Shown here in pieces: positions 1 through 17,548 of a stretch of DNA of 21,267 nucleotides (positions are counted from its first letter, which is position 1; every line of letters starts with the position of its first letter). The notes beneath the pieces were generated by a model. The model did no database searches. It saw only the letters and a list, made by a program, of their open reading frames with translations, and was not told the origin of the DNA. The translations under genes were made by a program, and so were the position numbers. The DNA comes from a virus, in IMG/VR virus record IMGVR_UViG_3300032073_000321, positions 1 to 21,267 of that record; one strand, written 5' to 3'.

Positions 1-2
1 GA

Positions 3-1202
3 GTCCGTTGGACCGTGTCCGCGGATACCGTAGTGTTATTCGATGATTTTTCACCTTATGACCATTTTACAATCGTGCCTTATTTTCCATACTTTCGTAG
101 AGGAAAACCGTTCGGTATGGTCCGAAATTTATTGTCACCTCAAGAACAATTAAACAAAATTACTTCTCAAGAACTACATATAGTAAACACAACTGCTAAT
201 AGTGGATGGATTGTAGAGTCTGGTTCTTTATCTGGCATGACAGCCGATGACCTAGAAGAACACGGCGCAGAAACTGGTTTAGTATTAGAATTTAACCGTG
301 GTTCTACTCCTCCTGGAAAAATACCACCAAACCAAATACCTACAGGTTTAGATAGAATAGGACAAAAAGCAGCAGCTAATATAAAACAAATTAGTGGTAT
401 TACAGAAGCCATGCTCGGTATGGATAGTCCAGAAGTTTCTGGTGTTGCTATTCAAGCAAAACAAAATAGAGGTTCTATGTTGTTACAAGTGCCTTTAGAT
501 AATCTTACAAAGACAAGACAATATCTAGCTGAGAAAGTTTTACAAATGGTACAAACTTATTACACAGAAGAAAGAATTATCCAAGTAACTGACGAGCAAG
601 ACCCTTTTAAACCAAGAAACAAAGTATCAGTTAATCAAATGACTCCAGAAGGTCAGATCATAAATGATCTTACTATAGGAGAATATGATGTAATTGTTGG
701 TACTGCTCCTGCTAGAGATAACTTTGATGAAATGCAGTTTGCTGAAGCAATTGAACTTAGAAATGTTGGAGTGCCTATACCAAACGATATGATAGTAGAG
801 TATTCACACCTTGCGCGTAAGGCTGATATTGCAGAAAGAATTAGACAGCAAGAAGGAACTGCACCGCCAACAGAAGAGCAAATACAATTACAACAATTCC
901 AAATGGAATCACAAATCAGAAGTACGCAGCTTGAGATTGCAAAACTAGAAGCAGAAGTAACTAGACTGCAAACTGAGTCTGCTCTGAATGTAGCGAAAGT
1001 AGAACAAGCTGAAGCTGATCCACAGTTGAAGGTTGCTGAATTACAAAGTAAACTACAAGCAAAACGTGAAGAGCTAGAACTACGTGAGAAGTTGTCGAGG
1101 ATGACAAACGACATGCGTATGGTGCAAAGCGATACACAAGCCGCAGTTAAAATGGCTGCTGCTGCCGTAAAACCACAAGGAGGTAATAATGGCCAAAAAT
1201 AA
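3..1202 (+). CDS. Portal protein, P22-like family (5' truncated by window edge)
   Basis: Portal proteins form the dodecameric ring at one capsid vertex through which DNA is packaged and ejected. The reading frame is open from the first bases, so the N-terminal part lies upstream; GTG at 15 is only an internal codon. About 399 codons are visible against roughly 700 in P22-type portals. Recognisable P22-family stretches are FRRGKPFGMVRNLL followed by a Q-x-x-x-N-K-x-x-S-x-E-L-H helix (visible residues about 35-60), then the SGVAIQAKQ segment and the LxKxRQYLAEKVLQMV helix. From about visible residue 300 to 380 there is a long charged helix rich in E, K, Q and L, consistent with the C-terminal helical barrel of this family. 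The last codons overlap the next gene by 14 bases. Family call is from pattern recognition; the role is established for the family. Confidence 0.85.
   Translation, partial: VRWTVSADTVVLFDDFSPYDHFTIVPYFPYFRRGKPFGMVRNLLSPQEQLNKITSQELHIVNTTANSGWIVESGSLSGMTADDLEEHGAETGLVLEFNRGSTPPGKIPPNQIPTGLDRIGQKAAANIKQISGITEAMLGMDSPEVSGVAIQAKQNRGSMLLQVPLDNLTKTRQYLAEKVLQMVQTYYTEERIIQVTDEQDPFKPRNKVSVNQMTPEGQIINDLTIGEYDVIVGTAPARDNFDEMQFAEAIELRNVGVPIPNDMIVEYSHLARKADIAERIRQQEGTAPPTEEQIQLQQFQMESQIRSTQLEIAKLEAEVTRLQTESALNVAKVEQAEADPQLKVAELQSKLQAKREELELREKLSRMTNDMRMVQSDTQAAVKMAAAAVKPQGGNNGQK
1177..1184 (+). promoter_or_regulatory. Shine-Dalgarno for the scaffold gene
   Basis: AAGGAGGT, a full-length match to the anti-Shine-Dalgarno core, lies inside the portal 3' end and 4 bases before ATG 1189. 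It fixes the scaffold start within the portal gene and predicts strong initiation, fitting a protein needed in many copies. Confidence 0.75.
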
Positions 1203-2229
1203 AAAAACTGAAACCCCGGAAGTAGTAGATGACAAAGTACTGTTTGACGCTATGCCAGGTGCAGATGCAAAAACTGAAGAAGATGCAAAAGGATTTGAAG
1301 TTGATATGAACTTCGATACCCCTGACGAAGAAGTAGAATTTCCCAAGGAGGACGAAATTGAAGAAGTCGAAGAACTTAAGGCTGAAGAAGAACCAGTTGA
1401 AGAGCTTGAAGAGGAAGCAGAAGAGGAAGTCCTTGAAGCTGCAGATGAAAGTGCAGAAGATTCAGGAGAAGAAACAGTATTGGCAGAAGATGGCGCAGAT
1501 ACACAACAATCTGAAGGAACAGTACCGGAAGCAGTTGCTGAGCCAAAAGAGCCAATGATTCCTAAGTCTAGGTTTGATGAAGTCCTAGCAAAACAAAAAG
1601 CACTAGCTAAAAAATTAGAAGAAGCTACTAATCCTATAGAGCCCATAGAAGGAGAACCTGAATATGACTTTGATGGAAAAGAAGCTGAGTATCAAGAATA
1701 TGTTTTAAATGGTAGAACTACAGACGCTTCAAAATTGCGCGCAGAAATTAGAAATGCAGAACGTCAATCTATGATGTTTGAAGTTCAAAATAGAATGGGT
1801 AAAACAGTTGAACAAAGTACAGAGTTATCTGCACTACAGGCTAAAGCTGCACAGCTAGCTGAAAGTTTCCCTATTTTAAATGAAACACATGCTGACTTTG
1901 ACGAAGTTAAAACACAAGAAGTTTTAGATTTAAGAGATGCGTTTGTAGTCCAAGGTTTTAGTGCAGCGGATGCTTTAGATAAAGCTGCAAAATACATAGT
2001 GGGCACTCCTGCACCAGCACCAAAAGTTAATACAGTACAACAAAAAATAGTAGAGAAAAAGAAAGTAGCAAACACACAAAAGAAAATGGAAGCTGCTGAA
2101 TCTCAACCGCCTTCTATGAAAGGTAAAACTAAAATAGAGAAAAAATTAGATATCAACACTTTATCCGTTGATGAATTTGATGCGTTACCAGCAGAAACTT
2201 TACGTAGAATGCGTGGTGATTTCGGATAA
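1189..2229 (+). CDS. Capsid scaffolding protein
   Basis: Predicted internal scaffold that directs assembly of the capsid protein and leaves before or during DNA packaging. Support is position (portal, then scaffold, then major capsid gene), length (346 residues) and composition. Residues about 15-115 are extremely acidic with runs of Glu. The middle (about 120-290) is charged and helical, and includes a short pattern seen in phage scaffolds: a SFPILNETHADFDEVK segment, then a G-F-S-x-A-x-A-L helix. The C-terminus ends in LPAETLRRMRGDFG, the short basic helical end expected to bind coat protein. There are no Cys residues and no membrane segments. The start is set by a strong Shine-Dalgarno inside the portal gene. 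No protease domain is visible, so whether the scaffold exits intact or is cleaved cannot be told. Alternative: another acidic head-assembly protein. Confidence 0.75.
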   Translation: MAKNKKTETPEVVDDKVLFDAMPGADAKTEEDAKGFEVDMNFDTPDEEVEFPKEDEIEEVEELKAEEEPVEELEEEAEEEVLEAADESAEDSGEETVLAEDGADTQQSEGTVPEAVAEPKEPMIPKSRFDEVLAKQKALAKKLEEATNPIEPIEGEPEYDFDGKEAEYQEYVLNGRTTDASKLRAEIRNAERQSMMFEVQNRMGKTVEQSTELSALQAKAAQLAESFPILNETHADFDEVKTQEVLDLRDAFVVQGFSAADALDKAAKYIVGTPAPAPKVNTVQQKIVEKKKVANTQKKMEAAESQPPSMKGKTKIEKKLDINTLSVDEFDALPAETLRRMRGDFG

Positions 2230-2394
2230 ATAGTGGTATATTGAAAATAAGTTCGCACGTAAGAGCGATATCTTACCAGGGTCGTTCCTGTAAAACATAC
2301 GTTATTCGCCCATCAAGGCGTTAAGCTGGTCGGGGTCGTGCCCGCAAACAACGAGAGCGTTTCCCCTACGATAGTGGGTATACGGATAAATAGT
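2223..2394 (+). repeat. 12-base direct repeat bracketing the leader cassette
   Basis: CGGATAAATAGT occurs exactly at 2223-2234, spanning the scaffold stop codon, and again at 2383-2394. The copies are 160 bases apart. Related ATAGTGGTATA (2230-2240) and ATAGTGGGTATA (2371-2382) sit beside each copy. Removing one copy and the material between would leave a simple 50-base leader with an intact scaffold stop and capsid Shine-Dalgarno, so the bracketed piece looks like an inserted or duplicated cassette. That origin is inference. Confidence 0.6.
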
Positions 2395-2444
2395 CGCTCC
2401 AATAAGTCGACTGGTTAATAAACTTTAATGATAGGAGACTTATC
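2230..2444 (+). ncRNA. Structured non-coding leader before the major capsid gene (candidate)
   Basis: This is the only long gap in the window (215 bases) and is visibly more GC-rich than the flanking genes. No convincing small gene is present. I can pair four simple hairpins by eye: 2259-2276 (GTAAGA/TCTTAC, 6-base loop), 2307-2320 (CGCC/GGCG), 2331-2344 (CGGG/CCCG) and 2363-2378 (CCC-CTA pairing with TAG-GGG with one bulged T, 3-base loop). The 2279-2301 and 2332-2353 segments are an imperfect direct repeat around GGGTCGT. The end of the gap (2433-2437, AGGAG) is the Shine-Dalgarno of the capsid gene, 7 bases before its ATG. Likely holds a promoter, an RNA processing site or a translation-boosting leader for capsid mRNA; which one is not decided by sequence alone. 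Confidence 0.4.
2233..2242 (+). promoter_or_regulatory. Shared motif GTGGTATATT, copy 1 (possible promoter element)
   Basis: GTGGTATATT begins 4 bases after the scaffold stop codon; the same ten bases begin 3 bases after the capsid stop at 3593-3602. TATATT resembles a bacterial -10 box, but no matching -35 box is evident, so it could instead belong to a phage-specific RNA polymerase promoter or a processing signal. Function is not established. Confidence 0.3.
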
Positions 2445-3590
2445 ATGGCAAATACAAACTTTGCTGCGTTGACCAGTGAACAATTAACGATCTGGTCTCG
2501 TGATTTCTGGCGTGTAGCTAGAAATATGTCTTTCATTAACCAATTCGCGGGTAGCGGATCTAACGCAATGGTTCAGACTATATCTGAACTTACTCAATCA
2601 GAAAAAGGAGCTAGAGCTGTATTAACACTTTTAGCCGATATGACTGGTGATGGTATTGTTGGAGACAACACTCTCGAAGGGAATGAAGAGGCACTAAGAG
2701 CTTTCGACATAGTCGTAGGACTCGACCAACTAAGATTTGCGAACAGACTGTCTGGTAGACTGGCTGATCAAAAATCAGTTGTGAACTTTAGGGAACATTC
2801 AAGAGACGCTCTTGCTTATGCAATGGCTGACAGAATGGACCAATTAGCGTTCCTTACTTTAAGTGGTATTGGATATAACTTGAAAAATAACGGTGCTTTA
2901 AGACCGCAAATGAATTCAGGTCAAAATCTAAACGACTTAGTGTTTGGTTCAGACGTAACCGCCCCAACTTCTAATAGACATAGAAGATTTGATGCTACTA
3001 ATGGTATCGTAGCTGGTGATGTTACTGCAGTTGCTGCAGCTGACAAACTAAGCTATAGCGCCATTGTTGATCTAAAAGCTTATGCTAAAGATCAGTACAT
3101 CAGAGGACTAAGAGGCGCAGGTAATGATGAAACATATCATTTATTTGTGACACCTCAAGTAATGGCTGACCTAAAACTTGATTCAGACTTCCTTGCTAAC
3201 GTAAGACAAGCTGGAGTAAGAGGACCAGGTTCAAGCTTATTCTCAGGTTCTTCAAGTCTAATGGTAGACGGAATTATGGTTCACGAGTTCAGACATGTGT
3301 TCAACACTACTGGCGCAACATCAGGTACTTCAAGTAATGCTGGTTCTGCTGGTTATAAGTGGGGTGCAGATGCTGACGTAAATGGATCTTCATGTTTATT
3401 CTGTGGTGCTCAAGCATTAGCTATGGCTGATATTGGTGCTCCAGAGATAGTAGAAGATACATTCGACTACGGGAACCAGAACGGTATTTCAATTGGTAAA
3501 ATATTTGGTCTTAAGAAGCCTAAGTATCATTCAGATGTCACAGGACAATCTGAAGACTTCGGTGTTGTTAGATTAGATGTCGCATACTAA
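2445..3590 (+). CDS. Major capsid protein, N4 gp56 family
   Basis: Main shell protein of the icosahedral head, HK97-fold by family. The 381 residues follow the N4 gp56-type pattern: an N-terminal helix with W-S-R-D-F-W, a basic R-N-M-S-F-I-N-Q-F segment and a Q-T-I-x-E-L motif (residues about 15-50), then G-D-G-I-V-G-D-N-T-L-E-G-N-E-E-A-L (about 70-88), a V-V-G-L-D-Q-L-R-F-A strand, and the helix SRDALAYAMADRMDQLAF followed by TLSG. The C-terminal part carries H-E-F-R-H, then a Gly/Ser-rich loop near residues 285-305, and a conserved-looking YGNQNGISIGKIFGLKKP segment. No propeptide cleavage site is evident. A Shine-Dalgarno AGGAG at 2433-2437 supports ATG 2445. A strong hairpin follows the stop codon, so high and separately tuned expression is likely. 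Confidence 0.88.
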   Translation: MANTNFAALTSEQLTIWSRDFWRVARNMSFINQFAGSGSNAMVQTISELTQSEKGARAVLTLLADMTGDGIVGDNTLEGNEEALRAFDIVVGLDQLRFANRLSGRLADQKSVVNFREHSRDALAYAMADRMDQLAFLTLSGIGYNLKNNGALRPQMNSGQNLNDLVFGSDVTAPTSNRHRRFDATNGIVAGDVTAVAAADKLSYSAIVDLKAYAKDQYIRGLRGAGNDETYHLFVTPQVMADLKLDSDFLANVRQAGVRGPGSSLFSGSSSLMVDGIMVHEFRHVFNTTGATSGTSSNAGSAGYKWGADADVNGSSCLFCGAQALAMADIGAPEIVEDTFDYGNQNGISIGKIFGLKKPKYHSDVTGQSEDFGVVRLDVAY

Positions 3591-3592
3591 TT

Positions 3593-3602
3593 GTGGTATA
3601 TT
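3593..3602 (+). promoter_or_regulatory. Shared motif GTGGTATATT, copy 2 (possible promoter element)
   Basis: Second exact copy of the ten-base motif, starting 3 bases after the capsid stop and running to just before the hairpin at 3605. With the preceding base pair it extends to T(A/T)GTGGTATATT in both places. Role unknown. Confidence 0.3.
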
Positions 3603-3604
3603 TT

Positions 3605-3630
3605 ATGGGTGGCTTACTAAAGTCACCCAT
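3605..3630 (+). terminator. Strong hairpin after the major capsid gene (attenuator/terminator-like)
   Basis: Left arm ATGGGTGGCTT (3605-3615) pairs with right arm AAGTCACCCAT (3620-3630) over 11 positions, one of them G-U, with loop ACTA. The T tract after it is poor (ATTT), so it is not a textbook intrinsic terminator; partial termination or protection of capsid mRNA ends is plausible, as with the terminator after the T7 capsid gene. The Shine-Dalgarno AAGGAG (3635-3640) of the next gene lies 4 bases beyond. Confidence 0.55.
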
Positions 3631-3647
3631 ATTTAAGGAGTAAAATT

Positions 3648-3995
3648 ATGTGGATAAAATCAAAAGAAGACATAACGGTGGCCTCTACTTGGGGTGCAAG
3701 CGTGCATCTAGTAGCACACGAGCCAAAACAAGTAGGTCATGATTTAGGACTACTTTGTTTACAAGCAGGTTGTGAAGAAGTAAAAGAAGGAGCAAAGGAA
3801 GCTCCGGTCGCTAAAGAACTAGTCGTCGAAGAAGAAGTTGTAGTCGAAGAAGAAGTTGTAGTTGAAGAAGAGTCAATAGATTTAGAGTCTATGACAAAAG
3901 TTGAACTAGAAGCTCACGGTCGTACTATAGGTATCGAACTCGATAGACGCAAAAAGAAATCAGATTTAATAGAGGAAATCAAAGCAGCGGAGTAA
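3648..3995 (+). CDS. Small capsid-adjacent protein with HeH/LEM-like C-terminus
   Basis: Function unknown; likely a minor head or connector-associated protein from its place directly after the capsid gene. The 115 residues split into three parts: a compact N-terminal region (about 1-48) with Trp, His and Cys residues; an acidic linker (about 49-80) with three V-V-E-E-E units; and a C-terminal helix-extended loop-helix pattern (about 80-115), M-T-K-V-E-L-E-x-H-G-R-x-x-G-I-E-L-D-x-R-x-x-K-x-x-L-I-E-E-I. This last part resembles HeH/LEM or SAP-like modules, which in other proteins bind DNA or nucleoprotein. A Shine-Dalgarno AAGGAG sits 7 bases before the ATG, just behind the capsid hairpin. A decoration or head-completion role is inference. 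Confidence 0.6.
   Translation: MWIKSKEDITVASTWGASVHLVAHEPKQVGHDLGLLCLQAGCEEVKEGAKEAPVAKELVVEEEVVVEEEVVVEEESIDLESMTKVELEAHGRTIGIELDRRKKKSDLIEEIKAAE
3819..3872 (+). repeat. Three 18-base tandem units coding V-V-E-E-E linker
   Basis: Codons 3819-3872 read as three successive 18-base units of the type GTT GTA GTC GAA GAA GAA, differing at a few bases. They encode an acidic linker between the two halves of the small capsid-adjacent protein and could expand or contract by slippage. Confidence 0.7.
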
Positions 3996-4001
3996 TATAT
4001 T

Positions 4002-4727
4002 ATGGCAGGGACACTTACAGGCGCTAATTTACTAGCTAGAATTCAGGACACCTTACAAGACACTACAAGTGTTAGGTGGCCAGAAGCTGAGTTAATTAGG
4101 TATATAAACGACGCTCAGAGAGAAATTGTAAATTTCAGACCTGAGTCATCAGCAACAACTTCTAACGTACAGCTGGTTGCGGGCACTAAACAGGCTTTAC
4201 CATCTGGTGGATTAAGGTTGATTAAACTAACTAGAAACATGAATGGTACAAGTAGTAGTGCTACTGGTAAAAGAGCTATTAGAATAGTAAATGCTGATAT
4301 TTTAAACACACAAGAACCAGATTGGAACGATCCAACTGTATCTGGGGATGCAGCACACGGAACAATAGTTAAACATTATATGTTTGATGAAGATGACCCA
4401 AGAAACTATTATGTATATCCAGGAGTATCTGGTAACGCGTATGTAGAGATTGTATTTTCTAATTCACCAACAGATTTAGCAAACGGTTCTGCAACTATTA
4501 GTGTAGATGACATATATGCAAATGCGATTATTGATTTTGTGCTATACAGATCATATATGAAAGATGCAGAGTACGCAGGAAATGCACAAAGAGCACAAAA
4601 CCATTACCAATTATTTACAGCTAGTATTGGGCAGGGCAACCAAGCTCAAATGTTGTTAGATCCAAACAACGATCCAGTTTCTAACATAGGCGCTGTTCCT
4701 AAGGTAATGCAACAGCAAGGTAGGTAA
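4002..4727 (+). CDS. Head-tail adaptor protein (SU10 adaptor / T7 gp11-like group)
   Basis: Predicted ring protein that docks under the portal and forms the first layer of the short tail. The 241 residues open with the pattern common to phage adaptors: two helices with L-L-A-R-I-Q-D-T-L-Q-D then W-P-E-A-E-L-I-R-Y-I-N-D-A-Q-R-E-I (residues 10-41). A beta-rich middle follows, including L-x-L-V-A-G-T-K-Q-A-L-P and Y-Y-V-Y-P-G-V-S-G-N-A-Y-V-E-I-V-F, then a helical C-terminus (about 170-210: Y-A-N-A-I-I-D-F-V-L-Y-R-S-Y-M-K-D-A-E) that usually packs against the portal. The gene begins 6 bases after the preceding stop with CGGAG at 3988-3992. Family assignment is from pattern; exact family name is uncertain. 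Confidence 0.7.
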   Translation: MAGTLTGANLLARIQDTLQDTTSVRWPEAELIRYINDAQREIVNFRPESSATTSNVQLVAGTKQALPSGGLRLIKLTRNMNGTSSSATGKRAIRIVNADILNTQEPDWNDPTVSGDAAHGTIVKHYMFDEDDPRNYYVYPGVSGNAYVEIVFSNSPTDLANGSATISVDDIYANAIIDFVLYRSYMKDAEYAGNAQRAQNHYQLFTASIGQGNQAQMLLDPNNDPVSNIGAVPKVMQQQGR

Positions 4728-4729
4728 AT

Positions 4730-5404
4730 GTGGCAGCCTACTCTTCTTTAGTTAAAGAAGTTCTACCTTACGTACCTTTGTGTCCAGACTCTTTGGTAGA
4801 ACAGAATTTACGTTCTGCAACAATAGAGTTTTGTGAAAGATCAAAAGCATACATTCTTGATATAGACCCTTTTAATACAATTTCTGGGGTTTATGAATAT
4901 GATTTTGATATACCCACAGGTACAGAAGTGCATCAAGTATTACTAATGACACATGATGGGAACGACATGGACCCCATAAGCCCACGTAGCCTGGAGTTAA
5001 ATTATCCAGATTGGAGGAACAGAACAGGCAATCCCCACGTCTATTTACAAAAAACACCCTCTACTTTTTGGATAGTTCCAGTACCGAGTGGGTCAAAAGA
5101 AGTTATAGCGAGCGTAGCTTTAAAACCAAGTAGAACTTCAAACAACATAGATACTGTAATTTCTAATCAATATAGAGATGCAATTATATATGGCACCTTA
5201 TATAGATTACTTAGGATGCCAAACAGAGAATGGACTGACATAGGGGCTGCCCAAGAGTACTCATTTCAGTTTAACCAAGAATTAAAACAAGCAGAATTAA
5301 GGGCCCGAGGTGGAGACCTTGGGGTAAAGAGAACTGTTAAGTACAAAGGAATAGGTATGCCAAGGAGACGGTATGGAAAGTACGGAAAGGAAATCGACTA
5401 TTGA
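4730..5404 (+). CDS. Second connector / tail accessory protein
   Basis: A 224-residue protein starting at GTG 4730, two bases past the preceding TAA; the overlapping ATG at 4728 is in a frame that stops after seven codons. The N-terminus (V-L-P-Y-V-P-x-C-P, residues 11-19) and the R-S-A-T-I-E-F-C-E-R-S helix, a beta-rich middle with T-F-W-I-V-P-V-P and a late helix Y-R-D-A-I-I-Y-G-T-L-Y-R-L-L-R-M-P are typical of phage connector proteins located beside the adaptor. The last 25 residues are very basic (R, K, G, Y-rich), which may bind nucleic acid or the acidic surface of another ring. The 3' end overlaps the next gene by 32 bases. It could be a short nozzle or stopper protein; the precise role is not decided. 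Confidence 0.6.
   Translation: MAAYSSLVKEVLPYVPLCPDSLVEQNLRSATIEFCERSKAYILDIDPFNTISGVYEYDFDIPTGTEVHQVLLMTHDGNDMDPISPRSLELNYPDWRNRTGNPHVYLQKTPSTFWIVPVPSGSKEVIASVALKPSRTSNNIDTVISNQYRDAIIYGTLYRLLRMPNREWTDIGAAQEYSFQFNQELKQAELRARGGDLGVKRTVKYKGIGMPRRRYGKYGKEIDY
5362..5367 (+). promoter_or_regulatory. Shine-Dalgarno inside the upstream gene
   Basis: AAGGAG lies 5 bases before ATG 5373 and within the coding sequence for the basic tail of the preceding protein. It supports the overlapping start at 5373 and explains the 32-base overlap. Confidence 0.6.
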
Positions 5405-5804
5405 GGAGCCTGTCTATACTGATATACGTCAGTGTTGGGACAAGGTAAAACCAGGCATAGTTGAGATAATAGAAGAAGATCCTTTTATTACTTTTATTCC
5501 TGAAGATGTTTACAGCGAGTGTGTGAATGAAAGGGCTTTTCTTTACACTTCTTCTGTAGGTTTTTTGATACTGGCTGTCGAAATAGATCAGTTTACAAAA
5601 GACAAGACATTGTATATGTGGTTAGCGTATACTTATGAGAAAGGAGGCCACAATTGGATGGCCCATGAAGAGTGGTTTAACCACCTAGCATCAGAAGCTG
5701 GATGTAGGTATATAGAAGCAAGGTCTCATATACCAGAATTAGAACCTTACGCTGTTGCAGATGGTTGGAGTACAGAAAAAGTTTATAGGAAAAAAGTTAA
5801 ATGA
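5373..5804 (+). CDS. GNAT-like virion assembly protein (T7 gp13-like position)
   Basis: A 143-residue protein. The C-terminal half has an acetyltransferase-like layout: a strand-rich core, then a helix with W-F-N-H-L-A-S-E-A-G-C-R-Y-I-E-A-R-S, and the ending G-W-S-T-E-K-V-Y-R-K-K. This pattern (helix, then a strand, then GW and a basic end) matches small phage GNAT-fold proteins such as the T7 gp13 group, also about 140 residues and also placed just before the internal virion proteins. No clear acetyl-CoA loop (Q/R-x-x-G-x-G/A) is visible, so enzymatic activity is doubtful and a structural use of the fold is more likely. It starts inside the upstream gene and ends with an ATGA junction to the next one, suggesting coupled translation. 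The fold assignment is a recognition call, not proven. Confidence 0.55.
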   Translation: MESTERKSTIEEPVYTDIRQCWDKVKPGIVEIIEEDPFITFIPEDVYSECVNERAFLYTSSVGFLILAVEIDQFTKDKTLYMWLAYTYEKGGHNWMAHEEWFNHLASEAGCRYIEARSHIPELEPYAVADGWSTEKVYRKKVK

Positions 5805-6400
5805 GTAAAGGACCTAAAAAATCAGAATATCAAGCAACAGAAGCTGAAAAAGTACAAGCTAAAGTAGCAAAAGCTGAAAAAGATTATTTTAACCAAGCGT
5901 ATAGCCCTTTATTAAGAGAACAACGCGATCTAGCTTTAAAAGAAAACTACGGCGATTATGTTGCGGGTAGAGCAGGCGCAGACGTAGCTCAAACTTTAGA
6001 TAAGCCTTCTCTTATGGCTACTAAGTCAGTTGATTCTTCTGCTGATAGGTTATCTGCGTCTATAGAAATGCAAGGTAAAGCACAGTCGTCAGGACTAGCT
6101 GGTAAAAGACAAAGGCAAATTGGTGTTTTAGCAACTGCAAGAGGACAACAAGCAGATGCTACTACTGGGTTAGCAGGGGCTGCACGTATAGCTGCTTCTG
6201 ATAGTTTACAGTCTGCCCAAAGAAAACAAACAGTAAGAACTGCAAATTTAAAAGCAGGATTCCAAATGGGTGGAACTATGTTGGCCCAAGGTATTGAAAA
6301 CGCGTCTACCGGCGACGGGTTCTTTGATCCCGGTAAGTCTAGAACAGAAGGAGCCGGTATGCGTTTTGTTGAAGGTTTATCATTAGGGAGCTACGGTTAA
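5801..6400 (+). CDS. Internal virion / ejection protein, small (T7 gp14-like), first copy
   Basis: A 199-residue protein, ATGA-coupled to the preceding gene. It is rich in Ala, Gln, Lys and Gly, helical, with a charged N-terminal helix (A-T-E-A-E-K-V-Q-A-K-V-A-K-A-E-K), a Gln/Ala stretch with G-K-R-Q-R-Q-I-G-V-L-A-T-A-R-G-Q-Q (about residues 100-117) and a Gly/Met region near 150-165 that could insert in a membrane. Length and position match T7 gp14 (about 196 residues), an ejection protein that reaches the outer membrane; sequence identity was not tested. It is read here as a component of the channel that carries DNA across the envelope. Confidence in ejection function comes mostly from context. 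Confidence 0.5.
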   Translation: MSKGPKKSEYQATEAEKVQAKVAKAEKDYFNQAYSPLLREQRDLALKENYGDYVAGRAGADVAQTLDKPSLMATKSVDSSADRLSASIEMQGKAQSSGLAGKRQRQIGVLATARGQQADATTGLAGAARIAASDSLQSAQRKQTVRTANLKAGFQMGGTMLAQGIENASTGDGFFDPGKSRTEGAGMRFVEGLSLGSYG

Positions 6401-6405
6401 AAATT

Positions 6406-6963
6406 ATGGCAGTTTCAAGATTAATGAGCGGGATGATAGATACTTTAGGGGACGTGAGTGATCCACAAAGCATTTATGCTCAAATGGCTAGAGATGACTA
6501 CGATAACTATATTGCTGATTTTAGAGGGTTTGAAGAACAACTTTTAAAAGCTCGTAATGACACATCTTTGATTGATAGAGCCAGAAAAGACTCAGAAACC
6601 AATACAAAACTAAATAGAGAAATAGCCGCACGAAACAGAGAACGTTACGGCGGTGCGGGCATGTCTAATGCACAAAGACAACAACAAGAAAGAACCGTAC
6701 AAAGATCAAGCGCTTTAGCAAGTGCCGGTAGTATAAACAACGCAAGGCTTGCGCAAAGGGAAATTAACCAAGCTACGCTTTCTGATCTTATAAATATAGG
6801 ACAAGGTGTAAATAGAAACGCATTAGGGCAAATGAACGAAGCAGCTCAAATGCAAAGTCAAAGATATAATGCATATAAAAATGCAAAAGCACAACATAGT
6901 GCTAATATGATAGGTATGGGAGGCCAAGTGGGATCTGCATTACTTGCAGCATTCTTGATTTAA
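6406..6963 (+). CDS. Internal virion / ejection protein, small, second member
   Basis: A 185-residue protein, rich in Ala, Gln, Asn and Arg. Helical and charged through residues 20-100, then a Q-R-Q-Q-Q-E-R-T-V-Q-R-S-S-A-L-A-S-A-G-S core that is very similar in style to other phage gp14-like proteins, and a C-terminal hydrophobic stretch G-M-G-G-Q-V-G-S-A-L-L-A-A-F-L-I ending the protein, suitable for membrane insertion. It begins 5 bases after the preceding stop with only a distant GGGAG upstream. Two small ejection-type proteins in a row suggest either a two-protein membrane pore or an ancient duplication; no clear sequence similarity between the two is visible by eye beyond composition. 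Confidence 0.5.
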   Translation: MAVSRLMSGMIDTLGDVSDPQSIYAQMARDDYDNYIADFRGFEEQLLKARNDTSLIDRARKDSETNTKLNREIAARNRERYGGAGMSNAQRQQQERTVQRSSALASAGSINNARLAQREINQATLSDLINIGQGVNRNALGQMNEAAQMQSQRYNAYKNAKAQHSANMIGMGGQVGSALLAAFLI

Positions 6964-6964
6964 T

Positions 6965-9388
6965 ATGAGTAATGAATATGCAAACGCATTTGCTAGAGGT
7001 CTATCTGCACCATCAACTATCCAAGCGAATCTTACCAAGAGCGCAGCAAATAAAGCGGCAAGAGAAACCTTGCAGAGTAACGCCGCTAAAAGCACCTACG
7101 ATTCAAATTTACAAGTTTTGTTAGGGGATATAACCCATACAAATGAAGAGGGCAAAGAGGTAACAGGAGGAATGTTTGTTCAAGAATCTGATGGGACTAT
7201 TGTTTTAGCTCCAGATGCAATGAAAAAACTAGAAGCGCTTAGCGATGGAAATCGAGAACAATATTCTAATGCGTTATTGATGAATGATATGATGGGAACA
7301 TACCATGCTGAAACCCCAGACGGGCAACTTGAGAAGAAAAGAAATCAACAAGTTTTTGCTCCTATTCTAGCAAAAGAAGGAGTAGTTCCTTATTCAGTTG
7401 AACAAGCAGCAGCTGCAGGTAATGTTGATTCTATTGCACTAAAAAAACAATATGAAAACGGTACCCTACGTGGTTACGTTACCCCTGCTCTAAACCAAGA
7501 AGGTTTACTTTCTTTACTAAATGTATTTGGTTCAGACAAAGCAGATGACCAACCACAGGTTGCTACGAGAGAAGAAATACTAACAGGTCTACAAGCTAGA
7601 GCAGATAAACTTAATGCAGATGCGCGCGCATTGATGCCAAAGAGAGACCGGGCTATAAATCTTGCAGAAAGCCAAAGCGCCATAGAGCTATCTAATATAG
7701 GCGGCGGTTCTGATCAAAGCATGATTGAGCTTGTTAATGGCGTATTTGATGAAAATGTTGGAAGAGGTTCTACAAATGCTTTCCTTAAAAACTTACAATC
7801 ACTGTATGCTGCTAATCCTAAATATACAGTTGCATCCCAACCAGCCTCTCAAACAGACCCTAGTATTGAAGTAGATAGTAAAGAAGATGTAATGGTTAAC
7901 ACCCAAGGTGTAGCTAAAACATTTGAACAGGCTTATCCAAGTTTACAAGGCTTAGATGGAGAACGTTTAGCTACCGAACTACAAAACCTAAAAGACTCAG
8001 GAGAGTTAGATAACTTCGGTGACCAACAAAAAGAACAAATATTTACAGATTTAGAAGAACAAGGTATTGGCTCAATTCCTGATTTAATGGCAAAACGTAA
8101 AGAACAAAAAGTTAGTGCGCAAGAGCAATATAAAGAAATATTATTGCTAAATACTGTAGCTGCTAGGACAGATGCAGATGGTAAGTTGGTTTTACCAGAT
8201 GGCAGAACACCAAAAGAAGCTGCCGATTCTATGTTTAATGAGTTTTACACAGGCGCACCAGGGGCAACACTTAATGACCTAGCAACTGCTCAAAACGCTA
8301 GAAGAACAAGTATCAGAGCTGACCAAACAGCAGATACTGCGGCGCTAACAGAAAAACGAACATACTATACTGCAATGACAGAAAGGTTAAAAAACCAAAA
8401 CGCAGACTTATTAGCTTGGAGAAAACAAATATTTGAAGAAAGCAAATATCGCTCAGAAACAATTGCAAAAGCAGCTAAAGCCGACCAAGATGTTAAAATA
8501 GCTAACGACCTTGAGTTTAAAACTGCTACCCAAGAATTGGCAGAAAGTTTCCCAGAAATTACAAAAATTCTAAGAGAGTACGCAACTAAAGGGGATGTTT
8601 CTAACCCTGGTTTCCCATTAGGACTTTTCCGAACTAGTTCTAGTATGGCTGATGACTTAGAACAGACTGAAAAAGTACGTATATTCCAGAATAAATTAGA
8701 GTCAATTACTAAAGACTATTTTAATAACGATCGAAAAGGCAAGGTAGGTAGCCAACATGTAAACGCAGCGTATGAAGCACACATGGCTGCTGCTGGGGAT
8801 AACGAAGAGTTGAGAGAAAGCTTACAAAAAATGTGGGACCAAGATGGGCATAATATTTATGTGTACAACTTTGCACAAGCAGGTGGGTTTACAGAACATA
8901 AGTTTATGCAAGAAGAAGCTATTGGCCAGAAAATAATGATGTCTTTACAAAACCCTGAGTCAATGTGGACTACTCTAACTGGTTGGACTGGAAAGCTTAT
9001 TAGTGGACAAGCTCCTGGCGAATACATAGCAGATATTGGTAGAAATGATCTGCAAGGTGCTGGTTTACTTAATGGTATAAAAGATACTTTAGCTCTAGTT
9101 TATGAAGGCGGAAATCCAGTAAAGATTGTTGCTATAGGCCCTGACGGAGCAGAACTAGAAGACTCTCTCCCACTAACAGAACTAGTGCGTGGACAAGCAA
9201 TAAGCGGTCTTGAGTATAATTGGATGCTAGAGAACTTAACAGCAATTGGTGATACAGAGGGCAAACCTAAAAAAGACAAAAAAGAAGAGCCAGACACAAA
9301 GAAAGACTCAAAAAGTAAAGAACCACTATCATCAACATTTCCAATAGTTCCTAACTTAAGTAATTTACCGGCGGGATCAGGTGTGTAG
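6965..9388 (+). CDS. Internal virion / ejection protein, large (T7 gp15-like position)
   Basis: An 807-residue protein whose ATG follows the previous TAA by one base. It starts with an Ala/Ser/Asn-rich helical segment (residues 1-50) and is mostly long charged helices; a clear helical block is at about 440-520. No hydrolase motif (lysozyme, transglycosylase, amidase) is recognisable. Residues about 762-790 form a Lys/Glu/Asp linker, K-P-K-K-D-K-K-E-E-P-D-T-K-K-D-S-K, followed by a short hydrophobic Pro-rich end. T7 gp15 is 747 residues and forms the hexameric periplasmic tube with gp16; order and length suit the same part here. The assignment rests on size, place and composition rather than on a recognised domain. 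Confidence 0.5.
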   Translation: MSNEYANAFARGLSAPSTIQANLTKSAANKAARETLQSNAAKSTYDSNLQVLLGDITHTNEEGKEVTGGMFVQESDGTIVLAPDAMKKLEALSDGNREQYSNALLMNDMMGTYHAETPDGQLEKKRNQQVFAPILAKEGVVPYSVEQAAAAGNVDSIALKKQYENGTLRGYVTPALNQEGLLSLLNVFGSDKADDQPQVATREEILTGLQARADKLNADARALMPKRDRAINLAESQSAIELSNIGGGSDQSMIELVNGVFDENVGRGSTNAFLKNLQSLYAANPKYTVASQPASQTDPSIEVDSKEDVMVNTQGVAKTFEQAYPSLQGLDGERLATELQNLKDSGELDNFGDQQKEQIFTDLEEQGIGSIPDLMAKRKEQKVSAQEQYKEILLLNTVAARTDADGKLVLPDGRTPKEAADSMFNEFYTGAPGATLNDLATAQNARRTSIRADQTADTAALTEKRTYYTAMTERLKNQNADLLAWRKQIFEESKYRSETIAKAAKADQDVKIANDLEFKTATQELAESFPEITKILREYATKGDVSNPGFPLGLFRTSSSMADDLEQTEKVRIFQNKLESITKDYFNNDRKGKVGSQHVNAAYEAHMAAAGDNEELRESLQKMWDQDGHNIYVYNFAQAGGFTEHKFMQEEAIGQKIMMSLQNPESMWTTLTGWTGKLISGQAPGEYIADIGRNDLQGAGLLNGIKDTLALVYEGGNPVKIVAIGPDGAELEDSLPLTELVRGQAISGLEYNWMLENLTAIGDTEGKPKKDKKEEPDTKKDSKSKEPLSSTFPIVPNLSNLPAGSGV

Positions 9389-9391
9389 TTT

Positions 9392-12300
9392 ATGTCAGAC
9401 CCAGTCCTTGACTTTATAAAATCTAAGAACGAAGAAAGAGAGCGACAAAAAGAGCCGTACGACCCCATCATAGGTTATAGAGATATGCTAGATAAGGTTT
9501 CTGGCGCAGACACCATGCCTGGTGGCCCTGAATTTGCAAACGAATTTGAGAATATAAGACCAGCTAATGCTGCTGATTCTATACGTCAGAGTTACAGAAA
9601 AAGCTTAAAAACTTTTGCTGCTGACATGGAATATATGAAAGGCGCTACTTTAGCTTTATTTGGAAATGAAGAAGGTGCTTACAACGCTGTTATGGCAGGG
9701 GTAAAAGAAGCAGATGAAGCGTCTAAACAAGTTGGAGCTATAGATTCAGCGGAAGCTTGGGAAGAGTTTTTAGACGAACCAGATTTTGAAGGTTTTATGC
9801 AATGGGCCCCAGCTGTTGTCGGAGAGACAGGTCTTTCTGCTCTTACTTCTATTACAGGTGCGCTTCTTGGAGTAGGATTAGCTGGACTGTCAGCACCTGT
9901 ATCAGTTCCTACAGGTACTGCTGCAGTTTTGGCTGGAGCAGCCGGTAAAAAGAAACTAAAAGACATTACTGAAAAACTCGCTTTTACACATTTTACAAAA
10001 GATATTATCTCTGATGCTGTCCAAAGAGCAGCTTTAAAAAAGACTCTTACTAACGAACAAAAAGATGTAATGAGGGCTGTTTACGGGCAATATCAAAAAA
10101 AAGTTTTAGCTAAACGAAGATTTATAGGAAGTGGGGCAGGGGTAACAGCGTCTGAATTCCCACGACAAACAGGACAAGCTTTTAGTAATTATGCAGATCA
10201 AGGTATGTACGATCCTATTTCTGCAGCTTTATCTTTTGGGCAAGGTACTGCTACTGCTGCAATCGGAGGTTTTACTGAAGCACTCGTTTTTAATAAGTTA
10301 TTTGGCGCTTTTACAAAAGCTACTGGTTTTAAATCGGGTATAACCCGTCCAGGTAGGCTAGATAACCCTAATAAGCCAGGATCTATACCTTATGGAGATA
10401 TATCTAAAACAATAGGAATCAGCACCGTGGCTGAGGCTGGTACAGAAGCATTGCAACAAGGAGTAGACTCTTTACAACAGTTTGGAATGCTTGACCCGCG
10501 TATAGAAGGTCAACTAAACGAAAAATATACTGCGCAACAAGCAAGGCTTGACGCTCAATTAGCTGCAGCATCTGGGGCCCTTGCTGGTTTAACTTTTGGT
10601 TTAGGTGGTGGTATTTCTACTGGAGCTGTAACAGGCGCTCAAAATTTACTGAGGGATTACCAACAGCGAGATGCAATGGCCGGCATGATACAGAAGAAGT
10701 ATGGACCAGGTGGACAAGGAGTACAGATAGAACCTAAAGAATGGATTAGGGGCCAGTTTAATGCCATGTTTGATCCAGAAGCAGATAAAGATGCTGTCTG
10801 GGTAGATGTAAATAGCTTAGAGGAGCTTGAAAAGTATAAAAAAGAATACCCGGGCGTTGCAAATTCAATGTTTAGTTATGATATGTCAGACACCAAAACG
10901 CAGCTAGGTGGTATTTTGTTTTCTACGGACTCACAAATCATAGAAGGTTTTAAACAGGTCATGGAAAATAACATGCCTAGCACTAATCTATTAGATAACG
11001 AGTTAGCTAGAATTTTAAAATACCCAAGAACTAGACAAAATTCAGATGCATGGGTAGCTCAAGTTAGAGACAAAGACACGGGTGCATTAGTTCATTACCA
11101 TCAAACAGGAGACCCAAAAGAAGACGGCGGCGTACACTTTGAGGCTGTTAAAAAAATGTTCCCAAACTCTGACAAATATAGCTACGAAATAGTAGACGCT
11201 GAAACTCATTTAGATGAAAGAGCATCACTTGTAGAAACCCCTGGTGTTGATTTAGATAACATTACAGCAAAAAACATAAGCATTCTTACTCAAGAACAGG
11301 CTGATGAAATTATGGGAAGAACAAGTACTGCAGACCCTGAAGGTATGACAGGTCTTAGGGATGAGACTGGTAAATATGCACAAGTTGCAGATGTGGCAGA
11401 AGATGGAGTAGATGTTACACCTACTCTACAAGAAGGTAGTAAACCTATTGTAGATAGAAATGGAAACCCCTGGAGAGCGCCTAATTTGCAATTCAGAGAT
11501 GACCAAGTGCCAAACGATGAACAAGTTAAGAATGCCAGGCTTCTTACCCACCCTAAATTTCGTCAAGAATTTGATAACGCTATAAAAGAAAATAAGTACT
11601 CTAGGTTGCTTTTGAAAAAGTTTATAGAGCAGGTAAACAAATTCGGAGCAGTAGACACAGATAACAACACAGAACTGGTTTATAAAATAGATGAACAAGC
11701 AGACGGTTTTGTTATTAATAAATATGACAAACCCTTAGAAAAATTACAATCGTACGAACAAGCAAAACCTGAGTTTGACCGTATCATCGTAGAGGCTAAG
11801 AGTAAGGGTAGGAAAAAAAGAAACAAAGTATTTAGCGACGGCAGTGAAAAAGAAGTATTTATGAATAGTCCTTTTGAGCTTACTAGTAGGGATCCTGATG
11901 GTAACTTTACACTACCACAAACAATAGACATGCCTACCTTAGTTAATGGTTATAGAAAAATATTAGGTAGGATGGCTGCATTACCTAATGAGCAATATTA
12001 TCAAAGCCTAGCAGATACCTTTACTAGTGTATACGGCAGTTTAGTAGATGATCCAGATTACCAACTAACATTTAAGGGTGAACCTATAACAGATCAAAGT
12101 TTTAATGATCCCGATTTTGTAGTTTACACCGAGGATAAAGGAAAACGTGAATTTTCTTTTGCTGATTTAGTAGCTAGGGGTGCTGAAGAATCTTTAGGAA
12201 TAAGTGACCAACAAGCTCCAAACACTGTCCTAAACATAGAAAAGAAAATTAAAGATATTAGTACCCAAATAGACTCTTTAGAAGAACAGATAAAAGAAAT

Positions 12301-15300
12301 GCAAACTATAAGAGATCAACAAGGTAAATTTAATAATGAACAGTACAACGCTTTTATGGAGTTAGTTGAATCTTTATATGGTCCTAAAAAAGGAGAAAAA
12401 AGAAATACTGCTGCTAATTTATACATCCAACGTAATGATTTAGAACAAAGCTTAAGGGAAGCAGAAACAGCAGGTGGTAGCACTAGTTTAGACCCAAGAG
12501 CTGATATAGAAGATATTACTGTAGATGATGGAGGAGATTTTCAGAATCAAGATTCTACAAACGAATATTGGGACGAGCAATTTGAGCATTATCAAAAACA
12601 AGGTTTTACTAGAAGTAAGATAAATTCTAAAAAAGAAACAAAACCAGAAGAAGAACCTAAGATGCCTAAAGAAACAGAGGCTATCATACTAAGTGAGGAG
12701 CTGGAGAAGTCTACAGACCTTGATGTTAAATCCTATATGAGAGATATAGCAAAGCTGGCTAAAAAACATTTAAACCTTAAAAGACCTATTTTGTTATATA
12801 CATCACAGGAAAAGCTTACGGTAAGAGGAGCTGCAAAGGTATTACCTCGTATTAAAAAAATAATCACAGACCACGGCGACGGTAATTTTGAAGCAGGATT
12901 AAAAGATATAGACAACACGTTAAATAATGTAAAAACTGAAGCAATGGATGATATTAGTGGTATTGCTGGGTATATGCAGGGAATAGGAAAACAGTTTGAT
13001 ATTATCGTGTTAAAAACACCAACTGATATGAGTGATTTTGATTTTGGATTATTACACCTTGTCCTGGGGCATGAATTAGGACATAGCTTTTTTAAGGAAC
13101 AAATGGTTAAAATCCTAAAAAATCCCGTGATACGAAATATGTTTATGAAAGAGTTTGAAAAAGCTAAAGAACAACAAATTAAAGAAGGTTTTGCAGGCGG
13201 CCAATACTTTGAAGAAAATGGTTTTGAAGAATGGTTTGTTGATAAAGTTTCAGCTGGTTTATTTGATCTGGAAAAAGGAACTATTCCTAATTCTAAAAAC
13301 TTAACTGATAACTATATTAATACAATGGTTGACAGTTTACTTGCTTTTTATATTGCTAAAGCTGATACACAAAGCAAAATTATACCCGGGAAAAACATGG
13401 TAGCGCCTTACATGCAAGGAAGGTTCACATACGATGAAACTGTCGGCGACTTTATGAAAGGTATAGCAGGAATCATTGAAGAAAGAACAGACTTAAATTT
13501 CCAAGATAGGGCTCACGCTGAGCAACTTATAGATGACCTCTTCGGCAGTAAAATGAGCACTAAGTTTTTACGTAGGATAAATAAAGACGCAGATAGAATG
13601 ATAAAAACTGGCAAAGTACCTATGTGGCTTACTAAGTTTTTCTTTACTGCTCGTGGTTTCTTAGATACTTTGGGCAAAGACCAAGAAACAGGTAAAGAAC
13701 TAGGTCAAATGTTTCACAAAGTTAGCGGAGAAAAAGGAACACCTGGGCTTATAAATGAATCAAACAGAAAATTAAACCAGCTAGTTAACGATCTTGTAAA
13801 CCGATTAGACATGGACGGTAAAGATGTAGAGGGTTTTGATGCAATCAAACAAGCTGTTACTGGGATAAATGACAACGCCTTTACCCAAGAAGAAATAGAT
13901 GCATTTAGAGAAGCGCAGGACGAAAAAATAGTAACAGAGGCTCTATCGCCAAAAGCACAAGTTGTACGTAAGTTCTTATTTGATGTGTACGATATTTTAG
14001 AATTAGAACAATATGAAATATTTAAACGTGATCCAAAAACTGGACAGTTCTATAAAAGTGACATTAAAAGAAGAGCAAATTATTTTCCTCGTATTATTTT
14101 AGTAGCAGATATTGCCGCTAACCCTAAGTTAAAAGCAAAACTTATAGAACTTCTTCTAGAAGCAAACCCAACTAGTAAACCCGCAGATGTTGCAAAAGCT
14201 GTAGAAGCAATTATTACAAACAATGAAAAAAATGTAGACACTGCTAGCAACTTAGATAAAGACTCTGGGTATGGACTAGGTATGCCGGAAGAAAGAGCCA
14301 TATTGTGGGAAGGACTAGATACACCTACGTTAGTTAAAGAAGGACTAGCCGCTCCGGGCGAAGTTGCAATAATAGAATATTTAAGAGATATAACAAGACA
14401 AGTAGAACTACAGAAAAGAGGAGGTAGTAGAAGAATTAAACAACTAATAGACATGCTGCCAGAAGAAGAGCAAGGACATGCTAGAGATGCAGTAAATGCA
14501 ATGCTTGGTAGGATAGATCCTATACGACATACTGCTTGGAGGCATATTAATGATGGCATGCTTACTTTAAACGTAATTACTCTTTTGGGTATGGCAGTGT
14601 TTGCTTCTGTACCAGATTCAGCAGGACCCATCTTAAGAAGCAGGGCTTTAGATTTAAAATCAATTGTTAATAATATAACTGCTGCTATGGGCAAAGGTGA
14701 GGGAGAAAAACTTGCTAGAGACATAGGTTCTAATGGTAGAGAAGCTATGGCACATACAATTTTATATGCAGGTGAACTGGATGGTTCAGCTTTGTGGGCT
14801 AGAAAAGCTACAAATAGCTGGTTTAGATTTACACAACTAGAAAGATGGACAGTGTTTACTAGAAAATTTGCTGCAGGTATGGCTAGAGATTTCTTGTTAA
14901 AACATGCAGAAATAGTAGACAAAGGCTATGAAGGAGACGCTGATGTACTTTTATCAGAAAGATATTTAGCAGACTTGGGTGTAACCGGCCAACAGATAAA
15001 CGCATATAAAAATGGTGGTAGTAATATAGAAGCACACCCAGAAGTAGCAGCAGCTTTGGGTAGGTTTGTAGATGAGTCTATTGTAAGACCAAATGCAGCA
15101 GAAAGACCTATATGGGCTTCTGACCCACATTGGGCAATTGTTTGGCAACTTAAATCTTTCTACTACGCATATGGTAAAAATATAATGGGGGGCTTATTCA
15201 GAGAAGGAAATACTAGGTATAAAGAAACAGGCAACATAACTCCAGCTTTAATGCCTTTGTTCTTTGGAGCAGCACTTTTAATGCCTCTAACAATGATAGG

Positions 15301-15628: not shown

Positions 15629-15636
15629 AATTAATT

Positions 15637-16011
15637 ATGGCATATTCAGACACAATAAAATTTGTAGTGGGAGACACACTACCGGTTTTAGAAACAACAT
15701 TAAAAGACAGTAATACCGCTGCAAGTGGGAAGACGTTAGATACAGAAAACTCAGATACTTGGGCAGCTCTAAGTTTATCTAGTGGCTCTGTAAAACTAAG
15801 AATAAGAGAAGTCGGACAAACAACACTTATAAAAACTATAACCGGCGCGATCGCAGACGCTTCTAATGGTAGAGTCAACTTTACTATACCAAGTGGAACT
15901 TGGACTACAGCAGGAACGTTTGAAGGCGAGATAGAATTTACTTCTTCAGGAGGAGGAATACATACTGTTCAGGACTTAATTAAATTTAAAGTCCGCGATG
16001 ACTTTGACTAA
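15637..16011 (+). CDS. BppU-like beta-domain tail protein
   Basis: A 124-residue all-beta protein. The layout I-K-F-V-V-G-D-T-L-P-V-L-E-T-T-L-K-D, then S-G-S-V-K-L-R-I-R, a N-G-R-V-N-F-T-I-P segment, T-F-E-G-E-I-E-F and a final I-K-F-K-V-R-D matches the N-terminal domain of phage baseplate upper protein BppU, which anchors receptor-binding trimers to the tail. AGAGG at 15621-15625 precedes ATG 15637. The stop TAA overlaps the next ATG (TAATG at 16009-16013), implying translational coupling. It probably attaches the following fiber proteins to the tail; an alternative is a free-standing Ig-like decoration protein. Confidence 0.55.
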   Translation: MAYSDTIKFVVGDTLPVLETTLKDSNTAASGKTLDTENSDTWAALSLSSGSVKLRIREVGQTTLIKTITGAIADASNGRVNFTIPSGTWTTAGTFEGEIEFTSSGGGIHTVQDLIKFKVRDDFD

Positions 16012-17093: not shown

Positions 17094-17101
17094 GAGAAAT
17101 T

Positions 17102-17527
17102 ATGTTAAATGACGGCTTAAAATTAACAGGTAAATTAACCATTGCCCTCAATGACGAGATCGTTCAAGAAGTTCCTAACTTAGTTGTTACTGCAGGAAAA
17201 GGTTACGTTGCTAGTAGAATGAAGGATGCTTCAGCTACTGCAATGTCACACATGGCGATAGGTTCTGGTGACACAGCGGCTGCAGCAGGTCAAACTGCTT
17301 TAGGTACTGAGTTAGCTAGAACTGCGTTAACATCAACAACTGTATCAGGTGCTGATATTGTTTATGTTGACACTTTCGCAGCTGGTACTGGTACTGGTGC
17401 CGTCAAAGAAGCAGCTATTTTAAATGCTTCTTCTGGTGGAACTATGTTATGTAGAACCGTTTTTTCAGTAGTTAACAAAGGGGCTAACGACGCTATGACA
17501 ATTACCTGGACGGTAACTGTTTCATAA
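17102..17527 (+). CDS. Small fiber-associated virion protein
   Basis: A 141-residue beta-rich protein without Cys pairs or membrane segments. After an N-terminal strand region (L-K-L-T-G-K-L-T-I-A-L-N-D) comes V-T-A-G-K-G-Y-V-A-S-R-M, then M-A-I-G-S-G-D-T-A-A-A-A-G-Q-T-A-L-G-T-E-L-A-R, and the ending V-V-N-K-G-A-N-D-A-M-T-I-T-W-T-V-T-V-S. This order (G-Y/V-A-x-R, I-G-x-G, T-x-L-x-x-E-L-x-R, then T-I-T-W) is common in small phage structural proteins encoded next to tail fibers. A Shine-Dalgarno AGGAG (17092-17096) overlaps the upstream stop codon. Likely a fiber-tip, adaptor or fiber-assembly protein; which one is not decided. Confidence 0.55.
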   Translation: MLNDGLKLTGKLTIALNDEIVQEVPNLVVTAGKGYVASRMKDASATAMSHMAIGSGDTAAAAGQTALGTELARTALTSTTVSGADIVYVDTFAAGTGTGAVKEAAILNASSGGTMLCRTVFSVVNKGANDAMTITWTVTVS

Positions 17528-17533
17528 TTATAA

Positions 17534-17548
17534 AGGAGATGTAAGTTG
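17534..17548 (+). promoter_or_regulatory. Shine-Dalgarno and TTG start of the fiber gene
   Basis: AGGAG at 17534-17538 is 7 bases before TTG 17546. The nearby ATG at 17539 is followed at once by TAA, and no in-frame ATG is found near the start, so TTG is the best start for the long fiber frame. Confidence 0.7.

Follow-up and report, generated by a model that had tools for sequence, protein, structure and literature searches.

The gap before the capsid gene

The stretch of viral DNA analyzed here (the window; positions 1 to 21,267 of IMG/VR record IMGVR_UViG_3300032073_000321) belongs to a marine podovirus-like phage. It opens with a portal fragment and a protein in the scaffold position, followed by the major capsid protein gene and further structural genes (Table 1). 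The capsid protein is 54% identical to the major head protein of phage KPP25. Between the scaffold and capsid genes lies a gap of 215 nt, the only long one in the window, as an earlier note on this DNA had pointed out; the runner-up is 57 nt in length (3591–3647). The gap is free of genes, with stops in all three plus frames, and its GC content is raised (0.48 for 2235–2382 vs. 0.387 for bases 1–17500).

Table 1. Positions of the genes, the repeat copy and the predicted RNA elements in the window, and of csrA genes in marine leader-bearing contigs (prefixed by contig).
Feature	Position	Strand	Description
Portal fragment	15–1202		PHROG 156
Scaffold-position protein	1189–2229		No PHROG hit
First 12-base repeat copy	2223–2234	+	Scaffold gene end (2223–2229) and following bases; outside the RNA core
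Putative extended -10-like promoter element	2234–2242	+	TGGTATATT; a few bases 5' of the core
Conserved structured RNA core (covariance model R1)	2251–2414	+	From comparison of relatives
H1 and PK1	2253–2276	+	UCGC (2253–2256) with loop GCGA (2265–2268)
H2 and PK2	2277–2301	+	H2 2277–2290; loop CGU (2283–2285) with ACG (2299–2301)
H3 and PK3	2307–2330	+	H3 2307–2320; loop AUCA (2312–2315) with UGGU (2327–2330)
H4 and PK4	2331–2354	+	H4 2331–2344; loop UCGU (2336–2339) with ACGA (2351–2354)
H5 and PK5	2358–2378	+	H5 2364–2378; CGU (2358–2360) with loop ACG (2368–2370)
H6 and PK6	2384–2412	+	H6 2392–2412; GGA (2384–2386) with loop UCC (2398–2400)
Hairpin H7	2429–2445	+	Stem UGAUA/UAUCA; SD GGAG (2434–2437) in loop
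Major capsid protein gene (proposed regulated gene)	2445–3590	+	ATG at 2445; PHROG 334 major head protein, E = 4e-78
Marine csrA	G001:22881–23036, G016:4600–4755, G029:20215–20373, G031:4233–4391, G043:36620–36784		Open frames of 64–85 amino acids

An exact 12-base direct repeat (CGGATAAATAGT) occurs at 2223–2234 and 2383–2394, with a spacing of 160. Its first copy overlaps the scaffold stop codon TAA (2227–2229), and its second copy supplies the GGA of PK6 and the 5' side of the H6 stem. The earlier note had offered two readings of the bracketed DNA, an insertion that still carries its target duplication or a small RNA or leader under selection. The 12-base repeat alone is unremarkable when set against shuffled sequence: dinucleotide shuffles of 17.5 kb held on average 0.5 such 12-base pairs within 200 nt, and 10 of 40 shuffles held at least one. 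In relatives, the first arm is mostly CGGATAAACTG or TTGGTTAA and the second CGGATAAAAGTCG or CGGGTAAATAGC, such that the 12-mer is not kept as a repeat. The two arms also differ in the job they do, the first belonging to the scaffold C-terminus, stop codon and promoter region and the second to the PK6 strand and H6 stem. Because the arms diverge independently, the repeat is coincidental in this genome, and the target-duplication reading fails.

The gap itself is conserved. Capsid relatives 83–100% identical to that of the window were collected from IMG/VR, and 80 loci were kept of at least 595 confirmed. In all 75 of these 80 with a readable scaffold–capsid gap, the gap spans 208–230 nt, and every one keeps the same hairpin series; no relative without the cassette, which the earlier note had suggested looking for, was found among them. 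With covariance model R1, each of 49 sources gave a single strong hit, and this hit always preceded the capsid gene (a further match in L025, at 11.6 bits and E = 0.3, is noise). A mobile or inserted cassette between target-site duplications would account for the exact repeat and for the raised GC, but the presence of the element in every readable gap, its restriction to one site, and a flanking repeat that is neither conserved nor beyond chance leave this explanation with practically no probability. The gap element is a deeply conserved RNA and not a removable insert.

Its placement before the capsid gene holds more widely. Among the IMG/VR matches listed for a 20-base motif, 166 of 168 scorable hits precede a capsid-like start, a count that pools loci of several scans and takes in some loci twice; the two exceptions (L147 and L182) are one and the same coding stretch, matched by chance. 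Homologues also occur in contigs derived from metagenome-assembled genomes (MAGs), with capsids ~77% identical, at E < 1e-20, and in four of these contigs (L276, L277, L279, L281) and the partial L278 the leader precedes a related capsid gene. L276, L277, L278, and L281 are filed as Neomarinimicrobiota, Gammaproteobacteria or Verrucomicrobiales MAGs, and these four are best read as binned virus or provirus.

Hairpins and pseudoknots of the RNA core

Comparison of relatives predicts that the core folds as six hairpins (H1–H6) with up to six consecutive pseudoknots (PK1–PK6). The small hairpins described in the earlier note are thus present, but the core has six and not four, and most are tied into pseudoknots. 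R1 scores 170.7 bits in the window (E = 1e-48), which is itself among the sequences from which the model was built. The pseudoknots were spotted by eye and then evaluated by pair counts and swap tests; a MAFFT/RNAalifold consensus missed them. Folding of the single sequence revealed no unusual stability (z = -0.30 for 2223–2445 and +0.32 for 2235–2382), and the structure is seen only by comparison of relatives.

Covariation in sets of 39 to 60 sequences gives strong support to the tested structure of six hairpins and four pseudoknots, and with it to the second reading of the earlier note, a small RNA or leader under selection. When 60 distinct gaps were aligned (A1), both partners varied in 27 pairs, with 327 such cells as compared with 93 in shuffled and at most 62 in slid controls, and 39 less redundant cores gave the same outcome; neither of these two alignments was fitted to the structure. 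A third alignment, of 56 sequences aligned by covariance model and including divergent members (capsid 73–77% identical), had 31 of 42 pairs changing on both sides and 358 compensatory cells, as against 97 ± 11 for shuffled (0 of 500 shuffles) and 17–53 for slid controls. As this alignment was fitted to nested hairpins and not to pseudoknots, the pseudoknot counts are not favored by the fit. The control shuffles keep relatedness in; the slid controls and the diversity of pair types argue against relatedness as the cause of the signal.

Covariation is seen for each of the hairpins. All six pairs of H1 (GUAAGA-GCGAUA-UCUUAC, 2259–2276) covary, as do all four of H2, all four of H4, and all five of H6. 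PK1, PK3, PK4, and PK6 are predicted pseudoknots with clear covariation, each at 0 of 500 in alignment-free swap tests. The fourth pair of PK1 is U-A in 30 cases, C-G in 20 and G-C in 1, and all four pairs of PK3 change on both sides (e.g., G-C 23, A-U 19, C-G 5). PK4 occurs as UCGU/ACGA, UCAU/AUGA, UCGC/GCGA, CGCAU/AUGCG, and CGCGU/ACGCG. The third pair of PK6 is A-U in 30 cases, G-C in 18, G-U in 5, and U-A in 1 (0 of 500 shuffles). PK2 is partly supported, its real score being reached by 14 of 500 swaps, and changed but matching partners occur in L079 (AGCAGU/ACUGUU) and L031 (CGAU/AUCG). The core of PK5 is invariant among the relatives compared and therefore carries no covariation signal; PK5 shares its form with PK1, whose UCGN/N'CGA pair covaries in KPP25-like leaders. 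H5 is nearly constant in the clade of the window and becomes CCC/GGG, CCUC/GAGG or GCUC/GAGC further out (L278, L277).

Paired columns contain 53 G-U wobbles vs. 8 A-C mismatches, an excess from which the functional molecule is read as plus-strand RNA. A DNA-level element, such as a packaging signal, an origin or a recombination site with the hairpins acting as single-stranded DNA, would conserve inverted repeats as well. However, it would not carry this plus-strand signature, and the position of the element is fixed before the capsid Shine-Dalgarno sequence (SD), making a DNA function highly improbable.

Initiation region and probable control of capsid translation

A candidate promoter precedes the core, and PK1 starts ~10 bases after its -10-like element. 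The pattern TGnTAnn(A/T) is found in 48 of 60 marine relatives. The window has no match to a -35 element, and its start site is accordingly one that we infer. KPP25-like leaders have sigma-70 promoters (TTGACA/TAnnnT) at the equivalent position, with scores of at least 10 of 12 in 11 of 58 (shuffled mean 0.47), and many members of this group have a terminator and then a promoter just upstream of the leader.

Downstream of the core, a seventh hairpin, H7, has the SD in its loop and extends as far as the first base of the capsid AUG. In the marine leaders, the two sides of the SD covary (10.8 vs. 9.2 ± 0.27 swapped, 0 of 300), in pairs such as UGAUA/UAUCA, UAAUG/CAUUA, UUAUG/CAUAA, and UAUAG/CUAUA; in the KPP25-like group, the same hairpin barely exceeds its control (2 of 300). 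In 44 of 60 marine leaders, pairing is also possible between the CUCC of the H6 loop and the SD GGAG. This pairing shows no covariation in the marine clade, where the H6 loop is accounted for by PK6 covariation, and CUCC:GGAG cannot form in some members (e.g., L042 and L058). For these reasons, we regard a switch between the two pairings as plausible for the window itself.

A scan with the KPP25 capsid yielded 80 loci, nearly all with capsids ~60–74% identical to that of KPP25; the phiA008 capsid, used in the same way against viral sequences, gave no hits. KPP25-like leaders differ in layout from marine leaders. They contain 104 hairpins with NCGAYA loops, as compared with 26 in shuffles, with NCGA pairing to an upstream UCGN; N and N' are complementary in 48 of the 62 cases with an upstream UCGN (C:G 24, U:A 14, G:C 10). 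A strand complementary to the capsid SD also covaries with it in this group (18.6 vs. 15.9 ± 0.36 swapped), as in L219 (CGCCUCUCU/AGAGAGGCG), L237 (CUGAUACCUC/GAGGUAUCAG), and L204 (CUUUCGCUUG/CAAGCGAAAG), with the proviso that the highest-scoring helix was sought over the whole leader, so that some helices (e.g., in L196 and L206) are due to chance. By inspection, the anti-SD strand includes the UCGN strand of the pseudoknot in L204, L232, L234, and L236, and this overlap suggests that the leaders of these four have two mutually exclusive states. R1 hits L217 and L225 at the same place (E = 7e-4), which is weak, though independent, support for a common origin; it gave no hit in KPP25, phiA008, AP1, or KLEP18-1, despite gaps of similar size.

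We propose that the capsid mRNA begins with a 5' leader encoded by the gap, a member of a new family of cis-acting leaders that control capsid translation, and assign this reading a probability of roughly 0.7. Alignment of relatives establishes the leader and its structure, and control of translation is likely in view of a position always ahead of the same gene, the hairpin around the SD, and, in relatives, the covariation of an anti-SD strand. Transcription would start just upstream of 2251 from the putative promoter around 2234–2242, and the nascent RNA would fold into tandem H-type pseudoknots PK1–PK6, and then into the A+U-rich hairpin holding the SD. The leader would act in cis on major capsid translation, its chain of pseudoknots positioning or capping the ribosome-binding region. 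The H6 loop (CUCC in most relatives) would have two alternative partners, the upstream GGA (PK6) and the SD, and the leader correspondingly an open and a closed state. The trigger may be folding itself or a protein, for instance CsrA or the capsid protein. The promoter and start site in the window, the direction of regulation, the switch in the marine clade, and the trigger are parts of this model that we infer.

Two other roles for a structured leader at this place were considered. The chain could serve mainly as a 5' stabilizer that blocks 5'-end-dependent decay and prolongs the life of an abundant capsid mRNA, with no translation switch. Such a role agrees with the closeness of PK1 to the -10-like element and to the predicted mRNA 5' end, a few bases away, the compactness of the tandem pseudoknots, and the single copy at the capsid gene, but it leaves the covariation of the SD hairpin and that of the anti-SD in KPP25-like leaders unexplained, and we judge it unlikely. 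Still less probable is a put- or EAR-like element, which would act on RNA polymerase where the late operon begins and cause processive antitermination. While a structured RNA between a promoter and a long structural operon, and the terminator and promoter upstream of many KPP25-like leaders, would fit such an element, put and EAR act far from an SD and need neither an SD hairpin nor an anti-SD. Moreover, no downstream terminator requiring read-through is established in the window, and neither EAR nor any other Rfam family matches.

Within the proposed control of capsid translation, the CsrA/RsmA family provides a specific candidate for the trigger. The leader would in this case be the operator of such a protein, from phage or host, which represses capsid translation through the GGA of the SD hairpin; this reading names a trigger for the leader explanation and is no alternative to it. 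CsrA is a candidate because of two sets of genes. In the distant relatives BcepIL02, Klebsiella phage ZX1, and Erwinia phage PEp14, which have homologous capsids, the space between scaffold and capsid is taken up by a csrA-like gene (L285, 1209–1403; L286, 1142–1351; and L287, 1149–1340, respectively), at the very place where the clade of the window has the RNA leader. In addition, five marine leader-bearing contigs encode CsrA over the Pfam cut-off; in three of these (G001, G016, and G029), the gene is ~17–22 kb upstream of the capsid gene on the opposite strand. A GGA within the H7 loop is likewise in keeping with such an operator. However, an ANGGA core at the SD region occurs in only 31 of 60 marine leaders and is absent from the window, KPP25, phiA008, and AP1 have no csrA, and the conserved ACGGA is explained by PK6 covariation, with ACGGG in many relatives. 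We therefore regard a CsrA operator as rather unlikely, though less so than the stabilizer. Autocontrol by the capsid protein may stand on a par with CsrA as candidate trigger. csrA genes have been reported in phages, and the sections of that report on which we draw name no phage target (PMC7366521).

Relation to known RNAs and neighboring features

No match to Rfam 15 was found at the gathering threshold in the window or in ten KPP25-like loci, and none at E ≤ 10 for 2150–2500; ARAGORN found no tmRNA. A search of open-access papers turned up no account of a structured RNA before a phage capsid gene, although a subscription journal may carry one.

Functionally, the closest known counterpart is the operator pseudoknot of gene 32 in phages T4, T2, and RB69, which a 2010 review describes as perhaps the sole viral pseudoknot with a known role in translational autoregulation (PMC3014915). 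It is likewise an H-type pseudoknot in a phage mRNA leader, located upstream of the SD of an abundant protein and exerting translational control. It differs in being a single pseudoknot with an unrelated gene and sequence, whereas the capsid leader strings together up to six and adds a hairpin at the SD and a loop resembling an anti-SD. The Guanidine-II RNA (mini-ykkC, RF01068) similarly has small repeated hairpins with CG loops before an SD, and its two loops dimerize with each other (PMC5486947); each loop of the capsid leader instead pairs with a strand outside its own hairpin. No match to RF01068 was found in the window or the ten KPP25-like loci. CsrA/RsmA systems resemble the leader in having a GGA in a hairpin loop at the SD and a csrA gene in relatives, adjoining the capsid gene in Bcep22-like phages, but the ANGGA core of their operators is not conserved in marine leaders.

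The preQ1 and SAM-II/V riboswitches are compact H-type pseudoknots that control SD access, as single aptamers before metabolic genes. The capsid leader has similarly compact pseudoknots but is without an Rfam match. Consecutive H-type pseudoknots occur in tmRNA and in the 3' UTR of tobamoviruses, chains that are alike in form and unlike in position and role. Control of major capsid synthesis in DNA phages is mostly regarded as transcriptional. If the proposed mechanism is true, the leader would provide, in a widespread phage clade, a rare case of post-transcriptional control over the most abundant virion protein. Its motif is absent from Rfam, and with four strongly covarying pseudoknots in 160 nt, it offers a useful benchmark for RNA structure prediction and for studies of tandem pseudoknots. 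More tentatively, and with less than even odds, the chain of up to six tandem pseudoknots, which draws in part on a recurring UCGN/N'CGAYA module, may constitute an undescribed RNA family in a large podovirus-like clade, in which a switch made of three mutually complementary stretches, the GGN before H6, the H6 loop and the SD, would act as a sensor coupling capsid translation to an assembly- or host-derived signal.

Several further features were observed. A 72.6-kb contig of Pasteurella testudinis DSM 23072 (L280) encodes a capsid relative (52% identical), and the region upstream of its capsid gene contains CUCGU...GGUGU-ACGUUA-AACACC, which resembles the PK1 module. In the window, the gap after the capsid gene (3591–3647) opens with GTGGTATATT at 3593–3602, the same 10-mer as at 2233, followed by an imperfect inverted repeat (GGGTGGCTT...AAGTCACCC); this element is possibly a second promoter or a processing site. 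The small protein encoded directly after the capsid gene (3648–3995) has VVEEE repeats and a C-terminal part resembling the PHROG endonuclease VII family (E = 6e-8). A 2078-amino acid protein (9392–15628) has a weak C-terminal match to virion structural proteins (PHROG 30152 and 6958) and is probably a large internal virion protein. A 1240-amino acid open frame (17546–21265) runs to the end of the window with long collagen-like G-x-y repeats, and the C-terminal end of its product resembles an intramolecular chaperone.
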